Source: Gracilibacteraceae bacterium
GTDB taxonomy: Bacteria > Bacillota > Desulfitobacteriia > Desulfitobacteriales > Syntrophobotulaceae
DNA length: 64,000 nucleotides
Assembly (NCBI GenBank): GCA_031266805.1
Contig: JAISAH010000111.1
Span: 48,605-112,604 of the forward strand
Direction of reading: 5' to 3'
The notes below the pieces were generated by a model that had not been told where the DNA came from, ran no database searches, and saw only the letters and a program-made list of their open reading frames with translations. How positions within the stretch are numbered: the first letter of the stretch is position 1; each line of letters starts with the position of its first letter. Positions 1,395-52,677 of the stretch are shown piece by piece. A program made the translations under genes and the position numbers.

Positions 1395-2357
1395 CTACAA
1401 GATTTTGCGGCGTATGAGATAAAACGCGGTTATCCCCGTCAGGAAGACGCAAATGCCGATGACGATCAAAAACCCGTAAGGAGTGCGTTCGCCAAAAGGC
1501 ACGATGACGTTCATGCCCCAAAAACTGGCAATCATCGTCGGGATGGCCAGGATAATGGTCATGGCGGTGAGAAATTTCATCACCATGTTCAAATTGTTCG
1601 AGATAATGGAAGCGAAGGTTTCCATCATCGCGGCGAGGATGCGGCTGTACATTTCCACCATCTGAGTCGCCTGACTGTTTTCGATGATGACGTCCTCCAG
1701 CAAATCCTCGTCCTCCTCATAAACGGGCAGAATATGCGCCGTATGGGCGCTGCTGCGGAGACGGAGCAGCCGGTCGAGCACGACGCCGTTGGAGCGCACG
1801 GAAGCGGAAAAATAAGTCAAGGATTGCTGCAGATCCATGAGCTCAAAAATGCCCTTGTTGTGCATAAAACGGCGCAGATCTTTTTCAATGCGCTCATTGG
1901 CCCGGCTGATCTGACGGATATAACGCAAGTAAAAAGTCGCCGCTTTAAGCAAAATTTGGAATAAAAAACGGGTCCGCTTCGCCGTATTAAAACTGCGTCG
2001 CGTATAATCGTTAAACTCCGTGAACACGGGGTTTTCTTCCAGGCAGACGGTTATGATCAGATCCGGGGTTATGACGATGCCGAGCGGCAGCGTGTCATAA
2101 TTGGTCTCGTTGGTCATGAGCGGAATGTTGACGAGAACCAGAGCGAAATCGTCTTCGACTTCGATGCGCGAACGTTCTTCCTCGTCGAGCGCAGCGCGGA
2201 AAAAATCCATGGGCGCGCCGGTCAAATCAGCCACTCGCGCCAATTCCTGCTCCGTGGGCCTGACCAGACTGATCCAGCAGTTGCGGTCCAGGTCTTCGAT
2301 TTCCAGCGTCTGAAATACGGATCTGTCGTTCTTGAATACATTGAGCAGCGCTCTCAC
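1395..2357 (-). CDS. corA: CorA-family divalent cation (Mg2+/Co2+) transporter
   Basis: About 320 residues: a large acidic, helical cytoplasmic N-terminal domain, then two C-terminal membrane helices (MKFLTAMTIILAIPTMIASFW and GFLIVIGICVFLTGITAFY) separated by the GMN motif in WGMNVIVPFGE. GMN plus two terminal helices defines the CorA/MRS2 pentameric channel family for Mg2+ or Co2+ uptake. The ORF track opens at a GTG at 2387, but a TACAAT box at 2394-2399 would place the transcript start at about that codon. A GTG at 2357 preceded by GGAGAAGAG is therefore preferred. The exact ion is not decided by sequence. Confidence 0.88.
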   Translation of the reverse strand: MRALLNVFKNDRSVFQTLEIEDLDRNCWISLVRPTEQELARVADLTGAPMDFFRAALDEEERSRIEVEDDFALVLVNIPLMTNETNYDTLPLGIVITPDLIITVCLEENPVFTEFNDYTRRSFNTAKRTRFLFQILLKAATFYLRYIRQISRANERIEKDLRRFMHNKGIFELMDLQQSLTYFSASVRSNGVVLDRLLRLRSSAHTAHILPVYEEDEDLLEDVIIENSQATQMVEMYSRILAAMMETFASIISNNLNMVMKFLTAMTIILAIPTMIASFWGMNVIVPFGERTPYGFLIVIGICVFLTGITAFYLIRRKIL

Positions 2358-2393
2358 CTCTTCTCCGCGTGGCCGGCAAAACGTCACGCTTTT

Positions 2394-2399
2394 ATTGTA
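2394..2399 (-). promoter_or_regulatory. Candidate -10 box for the corA-type gene
   Basis: On the minus strand TACAAT lies about 37 nt upstream of the preferred GTG start. No good -35 hexamer is visible, so this is a weak call that mainly helps choose the start codon. Confidence 0.35.
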
Positions 2400-2408
2400 C
2401 GCCGGATG

Positions 2409-3038
2409 TCATTGGGAAATTACGGCCAGCACCCCGGCGCGCAAAGCCGCGCTTTCGCGCCGGAGTTCCTCTCGCTCCAAGCGGACGGGCTCCGTAAACT
2501 CCGGGGCGTCGATCTGAGACAGATTAATATCCACGCTGAGGAGAGCGGATTCCAGCGCCCCGTCCAGGAGACAGGCGGCGACGCCGACGTCGCTTATAGC
2601 GCCCTTGTTGCCAATGGGCGCTAAAGCGACGGCGAGACGCAGGCCGGCCGCGCAGACCCGCGCCAAAGCCAGCGGCGTCAGCGCGGCCGCCCGCGTGGCG
2701 GCGGCAAGAGACAGCCGCCGCCGCGTCGCCGCCGCCGGGGTGTCTTGCGCCGCCTTATACGCGCGCATATAATCCTCAAAAACGCGTATATCCGCGCCTA
2801 CGCCTTCCCGCGCTTTTTCCGTCCCGGCGGCGGCTTCCCGCAAAATCCGGCGAGCCTCGTCCTCCACGGCGCGATATTTTTCCTTGCCGATCGTCAAATT
2901 GGCGACCATACTCAGCATGGCAAAGCCCATCGCCGCCGTATAGGCCGCGATACTGCCGCCGCCGGGCGTCGGGGCGCCGGCGGCGGCCCGGGTCAAAAAT
3001 TCATCCAAGGTCCAATCCAAAGAAAAATCTCCGGTCAT
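2409..3038 (-). CDS. fchA: Cyclodeaminase/cyclohydrolase family protein (FchA-like)
   Basis: A 209-residue all-helical protein of the formiminotransferase-cyclodeaminase C-terminal family. It carries the diagnostic loop APTPGGGSIAAYTAAMG near the N-terminus and a helical body ending KGAISDVGVAACLLDGALES. Stand-alone members act as methenyl-tetrahydrofolate cyclohydrolase (FchA) or formimino-THF cyclodeaminase. The start is the ATG at 3038, 7 nt after GGGGAG; the 20 extra upstream residues in the ORF track are not family-like. It lies 25 nt downstream of folD, so it probably works in one-carbon (C1-THF) interconversion. Which of the two reactions it performs cannot be settled from sequence alone. 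Confidence 0.85.
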   Translation of the reverse strand: MTGDFSLDWTLDEFLTRAAAGAPTPGGGSIAAYTAAMGFAMLSMVANLTIGKEKYRAVEDEARRILREAAAGTEKAREGVGADIRVFEDYMRAYKAAQDTPAAATRRRLSLAAATRAAALTPLALARVCAAGLRLAVALAPIGNKGAISDVGVAACLLDGALESALLSVDINLSQIDAPEFTEPVRLEREELRRESAALRAGVLAVISQ

Positions 3039-3063
3039 AAACGCGCTCCCCGCTCTTTCTATT

Positions 3064-3912
3064 TCAAAGGAGAGTCTTTTTCGCCGCTTGCAGCACATTG
3101 GCCAAGAGCAGCGCCGTGGTCAGAGCGCCTACTCCCCCCGGCGTCGGGGAGATCCAGCCCGCGGTTTCGCCGACCCCGGCAAAGTCCACATCGCCGCGCA
3201 TACCTTTTTCCGTCTGGCTGAGACCGGCGTCGACCACCGCGGCGCCGGGGCGCACCATCTCCCGCGTCACCAGACCGGCCCGTCCCGCCGCCGCGACTAA
3301 AATATCCGCTTGCCGCGTCAGGCGCGGAAGGTCGGGAGTTTGCGAATGACAAACCGTCACGGTCGCGTTTTCGCGTAGCAGGAGAAATATCAGCGGTTTG
3401 CCCACCGTGTCGCCGCGGCCGATAATAACGGCGTGGCGGCCGGCCAGCGGCACGCCGCTCCGTTTGAGCAAAGTGACGCAGCTGCGCGGCGTCGCCGGAT
3501 ACAGTCCGTCCTCGCCGCTCATCAGACGCCCGCGGTTCACCGGGTGGACGCCGTCCGCGTCTTTATCCGGATCAATGGCCGCGGCGACAGCCCGGGCGCC
3601 GATCTGCGGCGGCAAAGGCAGTTCCGCCATTATACCGTGCGTCCGCACATCGGCGTTCAGGCGCTGGATCAGGGCCAGCACTTCCCTCTCCGGCGCCGCG
3701 GCGGCAAAATGAAACAACTCGAACTCAATGCCGATATTTTCCGCTTGCTTTTTTTTCGCTTGCGCGTAAGTCAAAGAAGCCGGGTCGTCGCCGGCCATTA
3801 TAACCGCCAGTTTAGGCCTGACGCCGCGCGCCGCCGCGCGGTCCGTCTCCGACCGCAGTTCTTTTTTTATCTCGGCGGCAATGGTTTTGCCGTCTAATAT
3901 GTCCGCTTTCAC
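3064..3912 (-). CDS. folD: Bifunctional methylene-THF dehydrogenase / methenyl-THF cyclohydrolase
   Basis: A 282-residue cytosolic enzyme interconverting 5,10-methylene-, methenyl- and 10-formyl-tetrahydrofolate. Family marks are the YAQAKKKQAENIGI block with the catalytic Tyr and Lys, ELPLPPQI, DPDKDADGVHPVNRG, the Rossmann loop VIIGRGDTVGKP, and PTPGGVGALTTALLLANVL. The usual GRS of the Rossmann loop reads GRGD here, a mild variation. It heads the folD-fchA pair. A second cyclohydrolase-like gene next to a bifunctional FolD is redundant on paper and may indicate high one-carbon flux (inference). Confidence 0.95.
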   Translation of the reverse strand: MKADILDGKTIAAEIKKELRSETDRAAARGVRPKLAVIMAGDDPASLTYAQAKKKQAENIGIEFELFHFAAAAPEREVLALIQRLNADVRTHGIMAELPLPPQIGARAVAAAIDPDKDADGVHPVNRGRLMSGEDGLYPATPRSCVTLLKRSGVPLAGRHAVIIGRGDTVGKPLIFLLLRENATVTVCHSQTPDLPRLTRQADILVAAAGRAGLVTREMVRPGAAVVDAGLSQTEKGMRGDVDFAGVGETAGWISPTPGGVGALTTALLLANVLQAAKKTLL

Positions 3913-3983
3913 CCGCCGTACCTCCCGCGATCGATCGTGTCATTATATCACGGATCCATTCAATGTGCAAGCCTCCCAAAGCC

Positions 3984-45068: not shown

Positions 45069-45108
45069 GTTGTCTGTGATTTACAGGAACGGGAGAGCAG
45101 TCGCGGGT

Positions 45109-45714
45109 ATGGAAAACGAGATTCTGACCGAATGCGGCGGCGCGGAACGAATTGTCATATGGGGCGGGAGTTTCGACCCCGTTCACTGCGGCCATCTGGC
45201 CGCGGCGGAGGCGGCGCGCGCGGCGCTGGCCCCGGCCGCCGTTCTTTTTGTGCCGGCGGCCCGCTCGCCTTATAAGCGGCGCGCCCACGCCCCGGCGGCG
45301 GAGCGCTTGCGCATGATCGGGCTGGCCATAGCGGCGCGGGAAGGATTCTCTGTCACGGGGCTGGAAATTGAGCGCGGCGGCCCCAGTTTTACAGTGGACA
45401 CTCTGCGGCTGCTCCGGAAATATTTCCCGCGGCCGGAATTGTGGCTGGCGCTCGGCGCCGACGCGACAGCGGCTCTGCCGGCCTGGAAAGGAGCGGAGGA
45501 CATAAAGCGTCTGGCCCGTCTGGCCTGCGTCTGCCGCCCCGGATATTCCCTCGCTGTCGCCGCCGGCTGGGACATAAAGATTATCAAAACCGAGACGCCG
45601 GATATCTCGTCTTCGCGGATCCGCGCTCTGGCGCGCGCGGGAGATTCGCTGGCCGGGCTGACGCCGGAAGCGGTGGAGCGTTACATCAAGGCCAAGGGGT
45701 TGTACCGTTCATGA
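45109..45714 (+). CDS. nadD: Nicotinate-nucleotide adenylyltransferase
   Basis: A 201-residue HIGH-family nucleotidyltransferase making NaAD from NaMN and ATP in NAD synthesis. It has IVIWGGSFDPVHCGHLAAAE (HxGH as HCGH), RSPYKRRAHAPAAERLRM, ALGADATAALPAWKG and the C-terminal ISSSRIRALARAGDSL. The ATG at 45109 is used because a promoter-like -10 overlaps the earlier track start; its Shine-Dalgarno is poor. Its stop overlaps the next start (ATGA). NaAD, its product, is also the substrate of LarB at 16.1 kb. Confidence 0.92.
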   Translation: MENEILTECGGAERIVIWGGSFDPVHCGHLAAAEAARAALAPAAVLFVPAARSPYKRRAHAPAAERLRMIGLAIAAREGFSVTGLEIERGGPSFTVDTLRLLRKYFPRPELWLALGADATAALPAWKGAEDIKRLARLACVCRPGYSLAVAAGWDIKIIKTETPDISSSRIRALARAGDSLAGLTPEAVERYIKAKGLYRS

Positions 45715-47912
45715 AGCTGGGAATATTTTTCATGATCCTGGCGGGGATTCTTTGGAGTACCGCCGGCGTGCTGGTAAAATATATCTCTTGGTCGCCGCTG
45801 GCCGTCGTTTGCCTGCGCAGCTTTTTTGCCTCCGGTCTCCTTCTGCTCTATGTCCGCCAAAAGAACGGCCTGCGGTTCAAACTGTCCAGGCCGGTCGTCG
45901 CTGCCGCCTTATGCATGATGGCCACAATGATCCTCTATATCAGCGCCATCAAACTGACGATCGCCGCCAACGCCGTCTTGCTGCAATATACGGCCCCCGC
46001 CTTTATCGTCATTTACACGGCTCTATTTCGGCGCGTGCGCCCGCATCTTTTGGAAATTATTACCTGCACGCTTATTTTTGCCGGCGTGGCGCTGCTTTTT
46101 CTGGATAAAATAGGCGGAGGGCATTGGCTGGGCAATCTTCTGGGGCTGCTTTCCGGCGTCGCTTTCGGCGCGGTTTGTTTCGCCAATACCCAGAAAGGCG
46201 CCGACCCGCCGGCCGCGACGCTGCTCGGCAACGCCGGTCTTTTGCTCCTGCTGCCGTTTGTATTCGCCGACCCGGCGGTGTGGGCGGCCGGCCGGCATGA
46301 ATGGCTCGCGATAATTATTCTGGGCGTGTGTCAGCTGGGCGGCGGTTACCTGTTTTTCTGCGAGGGGATCAGCCGGGTACCGGCTTTCACGGCGGCGGTG
46401 ACAGCCACCCTGGAGCCGGTGCTCACGCCGGTCTGGGTGTTCGCGGCCATGGGGGAAAAACCCGGTTCCATGTCCTTGCTGGGCGGCGCCTTCGTGATCG
46501 TTGTTATTTTAGTCTACAATTTATTGCGGGCGGAGCGGGAACAGCCGGGCAGCGTCTCTTTTTGGCCGGCGCTCTGGGCGGGGCGGCTGACGGCTCTCGC
46601 CCTTAAACTGGCCGGCCGCCGGGGGACGACTTTGCCGGGGGCGGTGGCTCGGCGCCTATGCCGGCAACTCCCGTCCCGCCTGGGCAGCGCTTATCGGGAC
46701 GGGGTGGTGGTGATCACGGGAACGAACGGAAAAACCACCACCAATAATATTCTGGCCGCGGTTTTGGCCGCGGCGGGAAAAAAAGCGGCTTTTAACAGCG
46801 AGGGGGCAAATATGCAGAGCGGCATCTGTACGGCGCTGCTCCGGGACGCGACATGGCTGGGCCGCGTCCGCGGCGATATTCTGCTCGCGGAAGTGGACGA
46901 GGGCAGTCTGCCGGAATTTTGCCGGGAGATAAGACCGCGTCTGGCGGTAGTGACAAATTTCTTCCGGGATCAGTTGGATCGCTACGGCGAATTAGACGCC
47001 ACGATAGCCAAAGTGCGAGCCTCTCTGCCGCCGAAGACGGCGCTGCTCCTCAACGCGGACGATCCGCTCGCGGCGCGGCTGGCCGCCGGCCGGGAAGAAG
47101 CCCTGTTTTACGGAGCGGCGGCTCTGCCTGTCAGCGGCGGCGCGGGCGGGGAAAACCGGGAAGGAAGATTTTGCCCCCATTGCGGTTCCCCGCTTGATTA
47201 TACGCTGTTTCACTACGGACATTTGGGAATATATGCCTGCAGTGCCTGCGATTTTCGCCGCCCGGTTCCGGAAGCGGAAGCGACGCGGGTCAGCGCCGGG
47301 GAGAACGGGATTGCCTTTACGGTTTGGGGGCGGGAATATACGGCGCCGCTCCGGGGTTTCTATAATCTGTATAACGCTTTGGCGGCGCTGGCGGCGGCCG
47401 AGTGGCTCGGCGTTCCGCCCGAGGCCGGCCGGGCCGCTCTCAATGTTTTCACGGCGCGGGACGGACGGATGGAGGAATTTCACCTTGACGGCGGTCTCAC
47501 CCTCATACTGGTGAAAAACCCCGCCGGTTTTAACGCGGCGCTGGAGGCGGTAACCGCCGCCGACGGCCCGCTGCGTCTGCTGATCGCCATAAACGATAAC
47601 GCGGCGGACGGGCGGGATATATCCTGGCTGTGGGATGTGGATTTTGAAAGGCTGGCCGCCTGCGGCCCGCGCTTGCGCCAGGTCGTCTGCGGCGGCGTCC
47701 GGGGCGCGGATATGCTGCTCCGGCTTAAATACGCCGGGGTGAGCAAAGAGACGCTGCTTTGCGCGCCGGATCTCGCCGTAGCGCTGGCCGCGCTGCGGCG
47801 GTTTAACGGCGAGCGGGGCGGCCGCGTTTATGTGCTGCCCACCTATACGGCGCTGGCGCCGCTCCGCGCTTTGCTGCGCGCCGCCGAGCGGGCGGAAGGA
47901 GGGCGGGCGTGA
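45711..47912 (+). CDS. EamA/DMT transporter fused to MurT (lipid II isoglutaminyl synthase ligase subunit)
   Basis: One uninterrupted 733-residue frame. Residues 1 to about 290 are a ten-helix EamA-type drug/metabolite transporter (GIFFMILAGILWSTAGVLVKYI, FTAAVTATLEPVLTPVWVF). After a short linker, residues about 300-733 are a full MurT: Mur-ligase P-loop VVVITGTNGKTTTNNIL, VDEGSLPEFCREI, VTNFFRDQLDRYGELD, a zinc ribbon FCPHCGSP...CSACDF, and the C-terminal domain. MurT with GatD amidates the alpha-carboxyl of D-Glu in lipid II. The ATG at 45711 overlaps the nadD stop; gatD follows with GTGA overlap. No stop or strong internal ribosome site separates the parts, so this looks like a true fusion, pending read-level checks. 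Confidence 0.85.
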   Translation: MKLGIFFMILAGILWSTAGVLVKYISWSPLAVVCLRSFFASGLLLLYVRQKNGLRFKLSRPVVAAALCMMATMILYISAIKLTIAANAVLLQYTAPAFIVIYTALFRRVRPHLLEIITCTLIFAGVALLFLDKIGGGHWLGNLLGLLSGVAFGAVCFANTQKGADPPAATLLGNAGLLLLLPFVFADPAVWAAGRHEWLAIIILGVCQLGGGYLFFCEGISRVPAFTAAVTATLEPVLTPVWVFAAMGEKPGSMSLLGGAFVIVVILVYNLLRAEREQPGSVSFWPALWAGRLTALALKLAGRRGTTLPGAVARRLCRQLPSRLGSAYRDGVVVITGTNGKTTTNNILAAVLAAAGKKAAFNSEGANMQSGICTALLRDATWLGRVRGDILLAEVDEGSLPEFCREIRPRLAVVTNFFRDQLDRYGELDATIAKVRASLPPKTALLLNADDPLAARLAAGREEALFYGAAALPVSGGAGGENREGRFCPHCGSPLDYTLFHYGHLGIYACSACDFRRPVPEAEATRVSAGENGIAFTVWGREYTAPLRGFYNLYNALAALAAAEWLGVPPEAGRAALNVFTARDGRMEEFHLDGGLTLILVKNPAGFNAALEAVTAADGPLRLLIAINDNAADGRDISWLWDVDFERLAACGPRLRQVVCGGVRGADMLLRLKYAGVSKETLLCAPDLAVALAALRRFNGERGGRVYVLPTYTALAPLRALLRAAERAEGGRA

Positions 47913-48673
47913 CCATACGGATAGCGCATCTTTACCCGGATCTGCTCAACCTTTACGGAGACAGAGGCAATGTCATGACCCTCATGGCCCGCTGCCGCTG
48001 GCGCGGGATCGACTGCGTCCTAGAGCGGGTCTCCATAGGCGCGGCCTGGGACCCGGCGGATACGGACATCGTCTTCTTTGGCGGCGGTTCCGACCGGGAA
48101 CAGGGGATTTTGACGCGGGATCTGAGCGGACGGGCGCCGGCTCTGCGCTCCGCTTTGGCGGACGGGCTTGTCCTTCTGGCGGTTTGCGGCGGTTTACAAA
48201 TGCTGGGATCGCATTACCGGACGCCGGCGGGCGAGGAATATCCGGGACTCAGTCTGCTGGACCTGTATACAGAAGCGGGAGACAAGCGTCTCATCGGCGA
48301 CGTGCGGGCTGATTTGACGCCGGAGACGGCGGCGGCGGCGGCGCGCGCCTGTCCGGGCGCCGAAGGTTTGACGACGCTGGTGGGTTTTGAAAATCACGGC
48401 GGCCGCACCTGGCTCGGCCCCGGCCTGCCGCCGCTGGCCCGGACGCGGCCGGGCGCGGGCGGCGGCAATAACGGCCGGGACGGCGGGGAAGGCGTGCGCT
48501 GGCGGAATGTGTTCGGCACATATTTGCACGGCCCGCTGCTGCCGAAAAACCCGCATATCGCCGACTTGCTGCTGTCGCTGGCTTTGGCCCGGCAGGGTCA
48601 GCCGGCTGAACTGCCGCCCCTGGACGACGCGGAAGAAATCATGGCCCACAAGGCAAGGTTAGGGAAGCGGTAA
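47909..48673 (+). CDS. gatD: GatD, lipid II isoglutaminyl synthase glutaminase subunit
   Basis: A 254-residue class I glutamine amidotransferase-like protein (CobB/CobQ type) supplying ammonia to MurT. It starts IRIAHLYPDLLNLYGDRGNV and has the nucleophile Cys in LLAVCGGLQMLG and the His in FGTYLHGPLLPKNP. A Gly-rich insertion (GAGGGNNGRDGGEG) precedes the His block. The GTG start overlaps the MurT stop (GTGA). Together with the fusion upstream it should convert lipid II D-Glu to D-isoGln, which is needed for efficient cross-linking. Confidence 0.94.
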   Translation: MTIRIAHLYPDLLNLYGDRGNVMTLMARCRWRGIDCVLERVSIGAAWDPADTDIVFFGGGSDREQGILTRDLSGRAPALRSALADGLVLLAVCGGLQMLGSHYRTPAGEEYPGLSLLDLYTEAGDKRLIGDVRADLTPETAAAAARACPGAEGLTTLVGFENHGGRTWLGPGLPPLARTRPGAGGGNNGRDGGEGVRWRNVFGTYLHGPLLPKNPHIADLLLSLALARQGQPAELPPLDDAEEIMAHKARLGKR

Positions 48674-48710: not shown

Positions 48711-48739
48711 TTGCGTTCCGTTCTCGGATATAATATAAT
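48711..48739 (+). promoter_or_regulatory. Promoter of the LRR protein gene
   Basis: TTGCGT (48711-48716), a 17-nt spacer and TATAAT (48734-48739); an overlapping alternative is TTGTAG with TATAAT at 48729. Confidence 0.65.
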
Positions 48740-48797
48740 TATTTTATCTAAGGAAGCTCTAAGGATTTTCATCGCGGTCGAAACATGGAGGGTAATT

Positions 48798-50360
48798 ATG
48801 CCGTTAGTGTCGGGCCAATGCTCGCGGTGCGGCGCGATTGGCCAAGTGGACTCCGGGAAGGAAGCATATGTTTGCGCGAACTGCGGCGAGCCGGTCAGCA
48901 CGGAAAGAGCCGTTCGCCTGTATGAGGCGCGGGCGGAAGAAAACGCCGCGCCGGTGGTGATAGCGGAATACGACCGGCGCAAGTTTCGCGTGGAAAACGG
49001 CGTGCTTATCAAGTATTTTGGCGGCGATCACAAGGCGGAAGTGCCTTTTGGCGTGACGGGCATCGGCGAGGAAGCTTTCAGCGACTGCCAGATCCTCTTG
49101 GAAGTGGTTTTGCCGCCCACCGTCATGGAAATCGGGGCGAAAGCTTTTTCCAATTGCGCCAATCTCGCCAAAGTCATGATAGCGGAAGGAACGCGCGTCG
49201 TCGGGCCCTGGGCGTTTTTTGGCTGCATCAGCCTTACGGAAGTCACGCTGCCGGAAAGCGTTACCACCATAGAACCGTGGGCTTTTTACGGGTGTACGAG
49301 TTTGCGGAAAGTGCATCTGCCTTCTACTCTCACAGTGTTAAAGGAAAAATCTTTTTCCGGCTGTAACGGCTTAAAAACCATTGATTTGCCGGCTGCGCTG
49401 CTGGAAATCGGCGATTGGGCGTTTTTTGGCTGCCGCGGTCTGGAAGCGCTGACCATACCCCCGGATGTGCATACGATTGGCGCCTGGGCGTTTTTTGGCT
49501 GTCTCAGCCTCACCGGCGTCGTCATTCCCGACAGCGTTACGACGATCAGGGAATCGGCTTTTCAGGATTGCATGGAATTAGCCGCGCTGACCGTGCCCGC
49601 CCATTTGACCGTGCAGAGCGATGAGAACAAAAACCGGGTCAGCGTGGTAAAATTCGCTTTCAAAGGCTGCAGCAACCTGACTCTTACGACGGTCGCTCCC
49701 GGGGCAACGGAACTGCCCGCTAACGCTTTTTATGAATGCACGGCTTTAAGGTCGGTTGAATTGCCGGCGAGCCTGAAAAAAATAGGCCGCTTCGCTTTCC
49801 AGGGCTGTTCGTCCCTGCGGCGCCTTGACCTGCCGCCGGGCCTTGAGGAGATCGAGTCTTTCGCTTTTGCCGGCTGCTCGTCGCTAATGTCTTTGACGCT
49901 GCCCGACGGGATAACCGGCATAGCGGACAGCACGTTCGCCGGCTGCCAGTCCCTGAAAAACATCGATTTGCCCGCTTCACTCCAGACTGTCGGCGCCGAC
50001 GCCTTTTCCGGCTGCGTCAAACTGAATGACGTCCTGCTGCCGCGGGAAATCACCGGGATCGGCCCGCGGGCTTTCGCAAGCTGCGCCGCTCTGACCGGCG
50101 TCAGTTTGGGGCCGGCGCTGCAAGAGATCGGCGAAAGAGCCTTTGAGGGCTGTATTTCTTTGAATACCGCAGGCATGCCGGAGGAAACGCGGCAAAACGC
50201 CGAATTGATAGAAAAAGTGTTTCGCGGCACGCCGTTTTTCCGCGAGTATACAAGCGAGATGGCGCGTTCTCAATGGCGCAAGCAGGGGCGCTGCGTGCAT
50301 TGCGGCGGCCAGCTGGCATTTTTTGGAAAAACCTGTAAGCAATGCGGAAGAAAAAACTAA
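48798..50360 (+). CDS. Leucine-rich-repeat (BspA/LRR_5-type) protein with zinc ribbons at both ends
   Basis: A 520-residue protein. The N-terminal zinc ribbon is CSRCGAIGQVDSGKEAYVCANCGE. About sixteen BspA-type repeats of 23 residues follow with the pattern IGxxAFxxCxxLxxVxLPxxLxx. The C-terminus has a second ribbon, CVHCGGQLAFFGKTCKQCGRKN. No signal peptide is seen, so it is probably cytoplasmic, whereas many BspA-like proteins are secreted. The ATG at 48798 follows GGAGGGTAATT; the track start overlaps the promoter. The role is unknown; protein-protein interaction is the usual guess for such repeats. Confidence 0.82.
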   Translation: MPLVSGQCSRCGAIGQVDSGKEAYVCANCGEPVSTERAVRLYEARAEENAAPVVIAEYDRRKFRVENGVLIKYFGGDHKAEVPFGVTGIGEEAFSDCQILLEVVLPPTVMEIGAKAFSNCANLAKVMIAEGTRVVGPWAFFGCISLTEVTLPESVTTIEPWAFYGCTSLRKVHLPSTLTVLKEKSFSGCNGLKTIDLPAALLEIGDWAFFGCRGLEALTIPPDVHTIGAWAFFGCLSLTGVVIPDSVTTIRESAFQDCMELAALTVPAHLTVQSDENKNRVSVVKFAFKGCSNLTLTTVAPGATELPANAFYECTALRSVELPASLKKIGRFAFQGCSSLRRLDLPPGLEEIESFAFAGCSSLMSLTLPDGITGIADSTFAGCQSLKNIDLPASLQTVGADAFSGCVKLNDVLLPREITGIGPRAFASCAALTGVSLGPALQEIGERAFEGCISLNTAGMPEETRQNAELIEKVFRGTPFFREYTSEMARSQWRKQGRCVHCGGQLAFFGKTCKQCGRKN

Positions 50361-51447: not shown

Positions 51448-52158
51448 ATGGATATCAGTGGCAGATGGCGGACGATAAAAGAAAGGATCGCCGCGGCGGA
51501 AAAACGCGCCGGCCGCCCGACCGGTTCAGTAAGCCTGTTGGCTGTGACCAAGACTTTTGGACCGGAAGAAGTTTTAGCCGCCTATAAGGCCGGGCAGCGG
51601 GATTTTGGTGAAAACCGCGTGCAGGAATGGCAAGGTAAAGCGCCTTTTTTGCCGGAAGATTGCCGCTGGCATATAATAGGCCGTCTGCAGACCAACAAAG
51701 TCAAGTATCTTGACGAGCGCGTCCGCCTTATTCATTCGCTTGACCGTTTTCCGTTACTGCAGGCCTTGCAGACCGCCGGAGAAAAAAAAGGTCTGATCTG
51801 GCCGGTGCTCCTTGAGGTGAACATCGCCGGCGACGAGGCCAAAGCCGGACTGGCGCCGGAAGAAGTCGGCGATTTTCTGACAGCTGCGGCGGATTATTCC
51901 GCGGTGGATATCAGGGGATTTATGACCATCGGTCCTTTTGCCGCGCCGGAGGCGGAGATGAGAGAGGTGTTTCGCCGTTTGCGTCTCCTGCGGGATGAGA
52001 CGCGGGCGCGGGGGATCCCGGGCGCGGCGGGGCTTGACGCCCTGTCGATGGGTATGAGCCAGGATTTTGAGACGGCGGTGGAAGAAGGAGCGACAATAGT
52101 AAGAGTGGGCAGCCTCTTGTTTGGGGAGAGGCGACAGGACGACAGGGAGGAAGCGTGA
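51448..52158 (+). CDS. YggS/YlmE family PLP-binding homeostasis protein
   Basis: A 236-residue alanine-racemase-fold protein that binds pyridoxal phosphate and buffers B6 levels. Motifs are SLLAVTKTFGPEEVLAAY (PLP Lys), DFGENRVQEW, WHIIGRLQTNKVKYL, VNIAGDEAKAGL, GFMTIGPFA and LSMGMSQDFETAVEEGATIVRVGSLLFG. It sits directly before sepF, as ylmE does in the Firmicutes division cluster. GGAGGCGAT precedes the ATG, and a 27-codon reading frame of doubtful status overlaps its start. Confidence 0.94.
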   Translation: MDISGRWRTIKERIAAAEKRAGRPTGSVSLLAVTKTFGPEEVLAAYKAGQRDFGENRVQEWQGKAPFLPEDCRWHIIGRLQTNKVKYLDERVRLIHSLDRFPLLQALQTAGEKKGLIWPVLLEVNIAGDEAKAGLAPEEVGDFLTAAADYSAVDIRGFMTIGPFAAPEAEMREVFRRLRLLRDETRARGIPGAAGLDALSMGMSQDFETAVEEGATIVRVGSLLFGERRQDDREEA

Positions 52159-52677
52159 ATGAGTAAAATAACGGATTGGTTTCTCGGCGTTAGCGACGAC
52201 AGTGAAGACGACAACGAAGAGATTGTGGAGCGGGAAGAAGATGAAAGGAAGTCTCGCCGGCGCGGCAAGGCCGAACCGGAACCGGCGGCGGTAAAGGAAA
52301 CCGAAGCGGGAGGGGGACTTTTCGGGGGCAACCCGTTTCAGAGCGCGGCAGCCGCTAAAAAGCCGGCTTCGGTGGTAAATGTGTATTCCCAAAAGCAGTA
52401 TAAAGTTATCGTTTTTAAACCATGCCAGTTCAGCGAGGCGGAAAGCATCGCCAGGCATCTGAAAGAGCGGAATTCCGTCATTATCAATCTGGAAAAAACC
52501 GACGGAGATCTGTGGCAGCGGATCATTGACTTTATCAGCGGCACCACTTTCGCGCTGGAAGGCAAAATGCAAAAAATAGGCGAGGGCATCTTCATGTTTG
52601 TTCCCAGCAATGTGGACATCAACGATGAACTCAGCATTTATTCGGAACGGGAAATGCCCTGGCAGATGAACCGTTAA
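52159..52677 (+). CDS. sepF: Cell division protein SepF
   Basis: A 172-residue protein. The N-terminal membrane-binding amphipathic helix (MSKITDWFLGVSDDSEDD) is followed by an acidic linker and the SepF core (VNVYSQKQYKVIVFKPCQFSEAESIARHLKERNSVIINLEK, FISGTTFALEGKMQKIGEGIFMFVPSNVDI). SepF tethers FtsZ to the membrane and shapes the septum in Firmicutes. It begins immediately at the yggS stop. Length is typical. Confidence 0.96.
   Translation: MSKITDWFLGVSDDSEDDNEEIVEREEDERKSRRRGKAEPEPAAVKETEAGGGLFGGNPFQSAAAAKKPASVVNVYSQKQYKVIVFKPCQFSEAESIARHLKERNSVIINLEKTDGDLWQRIIDFISGTTFALEGKMQKIGEGIFMFVPSNVDINDELSIYSEREMPWQMNR

Follow-up and report, generated by a model that had tools for sequence, protein, structure and literature searches.

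What would a bacterial cell gain by joining a membrane transporter to a cell-wall enzyme in a single polypeptide? This question is raised by a locus in the 64,000-nucleotide stretch of Gracilibacteraceae DNA that was analyzed here as a whole (the window), where a reading frame that begins with an EamA-type transporter continues into MurT. MurT-GatD is a cell-wall enzyme that is essential or critical for fitness in several bacteria, and it has been proposed as an antibiotic target. An earlier note on this DNA regarded the fusion as not known from described systems. Our search of open-licence papers likewise yielded no account of an EamA-MurT fusion, and such an absence is not proof because only this portion of the literature was covered. 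We consider it likely that the gene encodes one 733-residue, membrane-tethered lipid II amidase that also carries a probably still working small-molecule transporter.

Organization of the fusion gene

The open reading frame at window positions 45711 to 47912 (+ strand) runs from ATG to TGA through 733 codons without an internal stop. As the earlier note proposed, this one frame covers both proteins. In Pfam, two EamA stretches (E 2e-28) are followed by Mur_ligase_M (residues 335-466) and MurT_C (residues 600-715; E 1.6e-33). The calculated mass of 78.2 kDa agrees with the approximately 78 kDa that had been anticipated. The parts of the gene and its closest neighbors are as follows:

45109..45714, + strand: nadD, upstream of the fusion; its TGA overlaps the EamA ATG, giving one run of overlapping genes
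45711..46526, + strand: transporter half of the EamA type (DMT superfamily), covering residues 1-272; PF00892 in two stretches and ten predicted helices
46527..46556, + strand: linker, residues 273-282 (RAEREQPGSV), about 10 residues; from a four-species codon alignment, predicted cytoplasmic by topology
46557..47909, + strand: MurT half, residues about 283-733, from Pfam/NCBIfam, alignment with S. aureus and S. pneumoniae MurT, and a structural model; contains an N-terminal helix, the P-loop (337-343), Glu394, a zinc ribbon (Cys488/491/510/513), Asp636 and MurT_C
47910..47912, + strand: stop codon of the fusion, read from the sequence; 4-base overlap with the gatD start
47909..48673, + strand: gatD, glutaminase subunit; from Pfam GATase_3, NCBIfam GatD and alignment with S. 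aureus GatD

The GTG start codon of gatD lies inside the TGA of the fusion, and this GTGA overlap is accompanied by a strong upstream Shine-Dalgarno sequence, GGAAGGAGG, with energies for this start of -10.6 to -14.8 kcal/mol. These features fit the translational coupling of gatD to MurT that was suggested previously. For nadD, the longest frame opens at TTG 45070 (window 45070-45114), and the ATG at 45109 has the better Shine-Dalgarno sequence and lies approximately where the alignment of relatives begins. A start at 45109 is likelier than one at 45070.

Just 3′ of gatD is a gene for a BspA-type leucine-rich-repeat protein of 520-549 amino acids (window 48711-50360), for which no match was found in the other three loci from the genus, two of whose contigs end soon after gatD. 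About 3 kb 3′ of gatD is a cell-division pair comprising an alanine-racemase-like (YggS-type) gene and sepF (window 51448-52677).

Conservation of the fusion within its genus

The genome that includes the window is a draft of 152 contigs, and a sequencing or assembly error that erased a stop codon or moved the frame might create the appearance of a fused gene. Comparison with related genomes argues strongly otherwise. Among five genomes of the genus, four carry the fusion as one frame, including that of the window; the other three are the metagenome-assembled genomes Gracilibacteraceae Gx485_bin213, Ct408_bin101 and Nc350_bin127, whose names alone suggest a termite-gut origin. Their proteins carry the identical in-frame fusion and share 94, 79 and 73% identity with the protein from the window. 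The fifth genome (67% complete) is uninformative because its contig begins inside gatD. All four fusion-bearing genomes keep the gene order nadD, EamA-MurT, gatD. No frameshift or stop codon occurs near the join in any of them, and the only length change in the linker between species is an indel of three whole codons in the four-species codon alignment.

Synonymous divergence among these genes reaches about 0.9 per site, and four assemblies that nonetheless agree on one architecture form a pattern that sequencing or assembly error would not produce. On the basis of these comparisons, both types of error are effectively excluded, and we assign them a vanishingly small probability. The dN/dS values (0.09-0.26 for the EamA half and 0.22-0.26 for the MurT half) indicate that both halves are under purifying selection. 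Both component families are known, and their combination appears to be a new architecture that is conserved at the level of the genus, a small one within the Bacillota.

One protein is favored over two

A single frame could still yield separate proteins if MurT were also, or mainly, produced on its own through internal initiation or through cleavage of the linker. GTG and TTG codons are indeed present in frame near the join, and cleavage of the hydrophilic linker is conceivable. We scored the in-frame start-like codons in this region by Shine-Dalgarno energy in all four species. The natural site for a separate MurT start, TTG272, has essentially no Shine-Dalgarno sequence and is replaced by CTG in the most distant species. 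Within residues 250-330, the sole start-like codon common to all four species is GTG262, whose Shine-Dalgarno energy is at background level and which falls within the final helix of the transporter. The strongest site, GTG334, follows a strong purine stretch in one species; because it is positioned at the strand of the P-loop, a product initiated there would be missing approximately the first 50 residues of MurT.

No conserved and usable internal start was found near the join among the four species, and no separate EamA gene adjoining murT was seen in close relatives; either finding would have spoken for two genes. Judging from these sequence features, one protein is much likelier than two as the product, and we regard the production of a separate MurT as rather improbable.

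The MurT half is a predicted lipid II amidation enzyme

Both the Mur ligase middle domain and MurT_C score above their Pfam gathering thresholds in the second half of the protein. The NCBIfam MurT model covers residues 285-723 (E 7e-86), where the scores of 289 and 272 bits (NF052464 and NF045635) fall below an equivalog cut-off of 800 bits. This shortfall concerns a strict equivalog label, with one of the models being named for Staphylococcus, whereas the Pfam domains, the fold and the key residues support membership in the wider MurT family. S. aureus MurT can be aligned from residue 285 onward (E 1e-79), and S. pneumoniae MurT from residue 287. The structural model of this half has pLDDT values that are mostly 80-96, and its top Foldseek matches are all MurT proteins of GatD/MurT complexes.

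The catalytic features of S. aureus GatD/MurT include residues E108 and D349 and the Cys4 ribbon (PMC6113224). By alignment, Glu394 and Asp636 of the fusion are equivalent to S. aureus Glu108 and Asp349, and the Cys4 ribbon is matched as well. These residues, together with the P-loop GTNGKTT at 337-343, are invariant across 35 MurT sequences. The description of this half as a complete MurT with P-loop, zinc ribbon and C-terminal domain therefore stands. The adjacent gatD encodes conserved Cys93 and His207, as judged by alignment to S. aureus GatD. A second MurT was not found in the genome, in which the fusion is the single match, so the fused protein probably carries all MurT activity. Together, these comparisons lead us to predict that the MurT half is an active lipid II amidation enzyme. 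In one species, represented by genome G002 (L038 / L055), the zinc ribbon of the MurT half is immediately preceded by an insert of about 30 residues that is repetitive and rich in Gly, Asp and Ser (GDGDSGDGDSGSGDSGSGDNGEG).

Distribution and origin of the fusion

In a survey of 83 genomes of the class, MurT is present in all 54 of those that are of good quality and is fused only in this genus. Nearly all other MurT proteins of the class align from about residue 281 of the fusion, and their open frames are about 450-520 amino acids long. A phylum survey with MurT_C identified MurT in 135 of 399 genomes, and the sole other frame exceeding 650 amino acids (G448) is a spurious upstream reading. 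Two additional classes, surveyed in 63 and 20 genomes, contained no EamA-MurT fusion, and none beyond the genus occurs among the best 80 loci of the genome collection. Judging from these surveys, MurT stands alone outside the genus in every case seen.

Four long open frames (G448, G440, G014 and G057) were read out, and a fifth (G490, 728 amino acids) was left out. In G448 (735 amino acids) and G440 (618 amino acids), sequence that appears non-coding precedes a normal MurT start. The G014 frame (668 amino acids) begins with MurT, and the G057 frame (713 amino acids) crosses a run of N before continuing into GatD. The alignments from G187, G062, L067 and G011 that reach back to residues 204-260 extend through unrelated upstream sequence; that of G011 was not read further. 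In G187, which belongs to another class, the upstream element is a separate MFS-like gene that abuts murT with 27 bases between them (L199:1041-2327 and 2355-3947), and this pair is an independent transporter-murT neighborhood. In G448, what precedes murT looks like this MFS-like gene read in the wrong frame.

In other members of the family, a gene for an RNA-binding protein comes after nadD, accompanied where readable by a yqeK-like gene (named from sequence), and an EamA gene was not seen directly upstream of murT in any of the other family loci read. The differing neighbors of nadD, combined with the absence of EamA upstream of murT, point to a rearrangement at the base of the genus. This event probably brought together nadD, an EamA gene and murT-gatD, after which the two middle genes became one.

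The transporter half and its possible roles

The EamA half has the two PF00892 repeats and ten helices of a DMT protein. Two attempts to model its tertiary structure gave unusable results (pLDDT mostly below 50), and the models were read by DSSP for helices only. A positive-inside count gives 13 K/R residues in the loops on the side of the N and C termini versus 5 on the other side, which supports a cytoplasmic location for both ends. A related ten-helix DMT protein, mCST, likewise has its termini on one side, which is thought to be cytoplasmic (PMC6508934). MurT would consequently be held on the side of the membrane where lipid II is presented to it.

Is this half now only a means of attachment? 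A passive anchor that merely holds MurT at the membrane, with transport lost, has the appeal that tethering by itself would explain retention of the fusion. Yet the dN/dS ranges given above show roughly equal constraint on the EamA half and on MurT, which counts against a dead anchor. Moreover, stand-alone EamA proteins of the class align with the EamA half over its full length at 31-39% identity, and the motifs that they share are kept throughout. We consider the loss of transport unlikely, and most likely the EamA half still moves its own small substrate.

The same purifying selection might instead reflect functional coupling, an idea also raised in the earlier note, wherein transport and amidation are linked mechanically or kinetically. 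The EamA half would then move either an amino acid of the reaction (glutamine or glutamate) or an intermediate of cell-wall synthesis that is linked to a lipid, or the carrier of such an intermediate. The best family-level match, the 2A78 carboxylate/amino acid/amine transporter model TIGR00950, is compatible with this idea, and ArnE/ArnF provide a precedent in which small DMT-related proteins flip an undecaprenyl-linked sugar (PMC9574504). However, the TIGR00950 match is far below its cut-off (83.7 bits versus a curated value of 230), such that the EamA half is not assigned to this family, and the YddG model also matches well below its cut-off. These nearest models, all with matches below cut-off, describe amino-acid and amine exporters rather than lipid flippases. 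In addition, the genes beside stand-alone EamA homologues at the two loci examined, which are among the nearest in the class, provide no hint of a substrate, and cell-wall genes do not adjoin them. A fusion of this kind is also absent from all other lineages surveyed. Coupling thus appears doubtful. A full transporter-enzyme machine, in which a cell-wall substrate or product (a lipid-linked precursor, a carrier, or the glutamine/glutamate pair of GatD) is moved and there is mutual control between transport and the amidation of lipid II, would be very unlikely.

A probable membrane-tethered amidase

The arrangement that we favor, a tethered amidase with a transporter that continues to function, would operate as follows. 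The gene would be expressed as one inner-membrane protein of 733 residues. Residues 1-272 would make up the EamA/DMT transporter, with ten helices and with its two ends on the cytoplasmic side. The remaining approximately 450 residues, the only MurT of the genome, would be kept at the cytoplasmic face of the membrane and would pair with GatD made by coupled translation. The MurT-GatD pair would then amidate the D-Glu of lipid II by using ATP and glutamine-derived ammonia. Tethering is the most likely gain, since it would place the enzyme at its membrane-bound substrate in a fixed ratio, and the transporter half most likely continues to move its own small substrate. The membrane side, the enzymatic activity, the benefit of tethering and the continuing transport are all aspects that we infer.

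Known features of MurT are consistent with this proposal. The substrates of GatD/MurT are lipid-bound precursors (PMC3266927). MurT is without the UDP-binding N-terminal Mur domain, for which a steric conflict with the membrane would be likely (PMC6113224), which makes the N-terminus of MurT a plausible point of attachment on the membrane side. The fusion therefore joins the membrane protein to the end of MurT that is expected to be nearest the bilayer.

Soluble MurT functions elsewhere without a tether, which counts against the tethering account. Regarding the previous proposal that the transporter fixes MurT at the membrane, the physical join and its conservation are supportive and the predicted cytoplasmic side fits an action on lipid II of the inner leaflet, whereas the fixing itself is a prediction.

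The published MurT-GatD structures that were examined do not make visible how the enzyme and lipid II come together at the membrane. With MurT pinned by its N-terminus, a naturally occurring fusion would offer a direct constraint on orientation, and structural studies could use it as a construct. Should the substrate of the transporter half prove to be related to the cell wall, a large and poorly assigned transporter family would also gain a pointer to its function.

Comparison with known systems

The fusion shares with the known MurT-GatD complexes from S. aureus (6gs2/6h5e/7q8e), S. pneumoniae (6fqb) and S. pyogenes (9sq9/9sqj) all domains of MurT, the residues of the ATP site and the triad, and the zinc ribbon, and its locus likewise includes a coupled gatD with the Cys and His residues. 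The MurT proteins known so far are soluble and have no transporter attached, whereas here the chain opens with a ten-helix transporter and continues into MurT.

Similarly, the EamA half shares two repeats, ten helices and putative cytoplasmic termini with the EamA/DMT transporters (PF00892; TIGR00950; YddG, PDB 5i20). The characterized members are only distantly related to it, and the fusion differs from them in bearing a C-terminal enzyme. ArnE/ArnF, a glycolipid flippase of the SMR family that moves an undecaprenyl-linked precursor of the cell envelope (PMC9574504), belong to the same wider transporter group, but these are four-helix subunits with no enzyme attached, in contrast to the ten-helix EamA half that is continuous with MurT.
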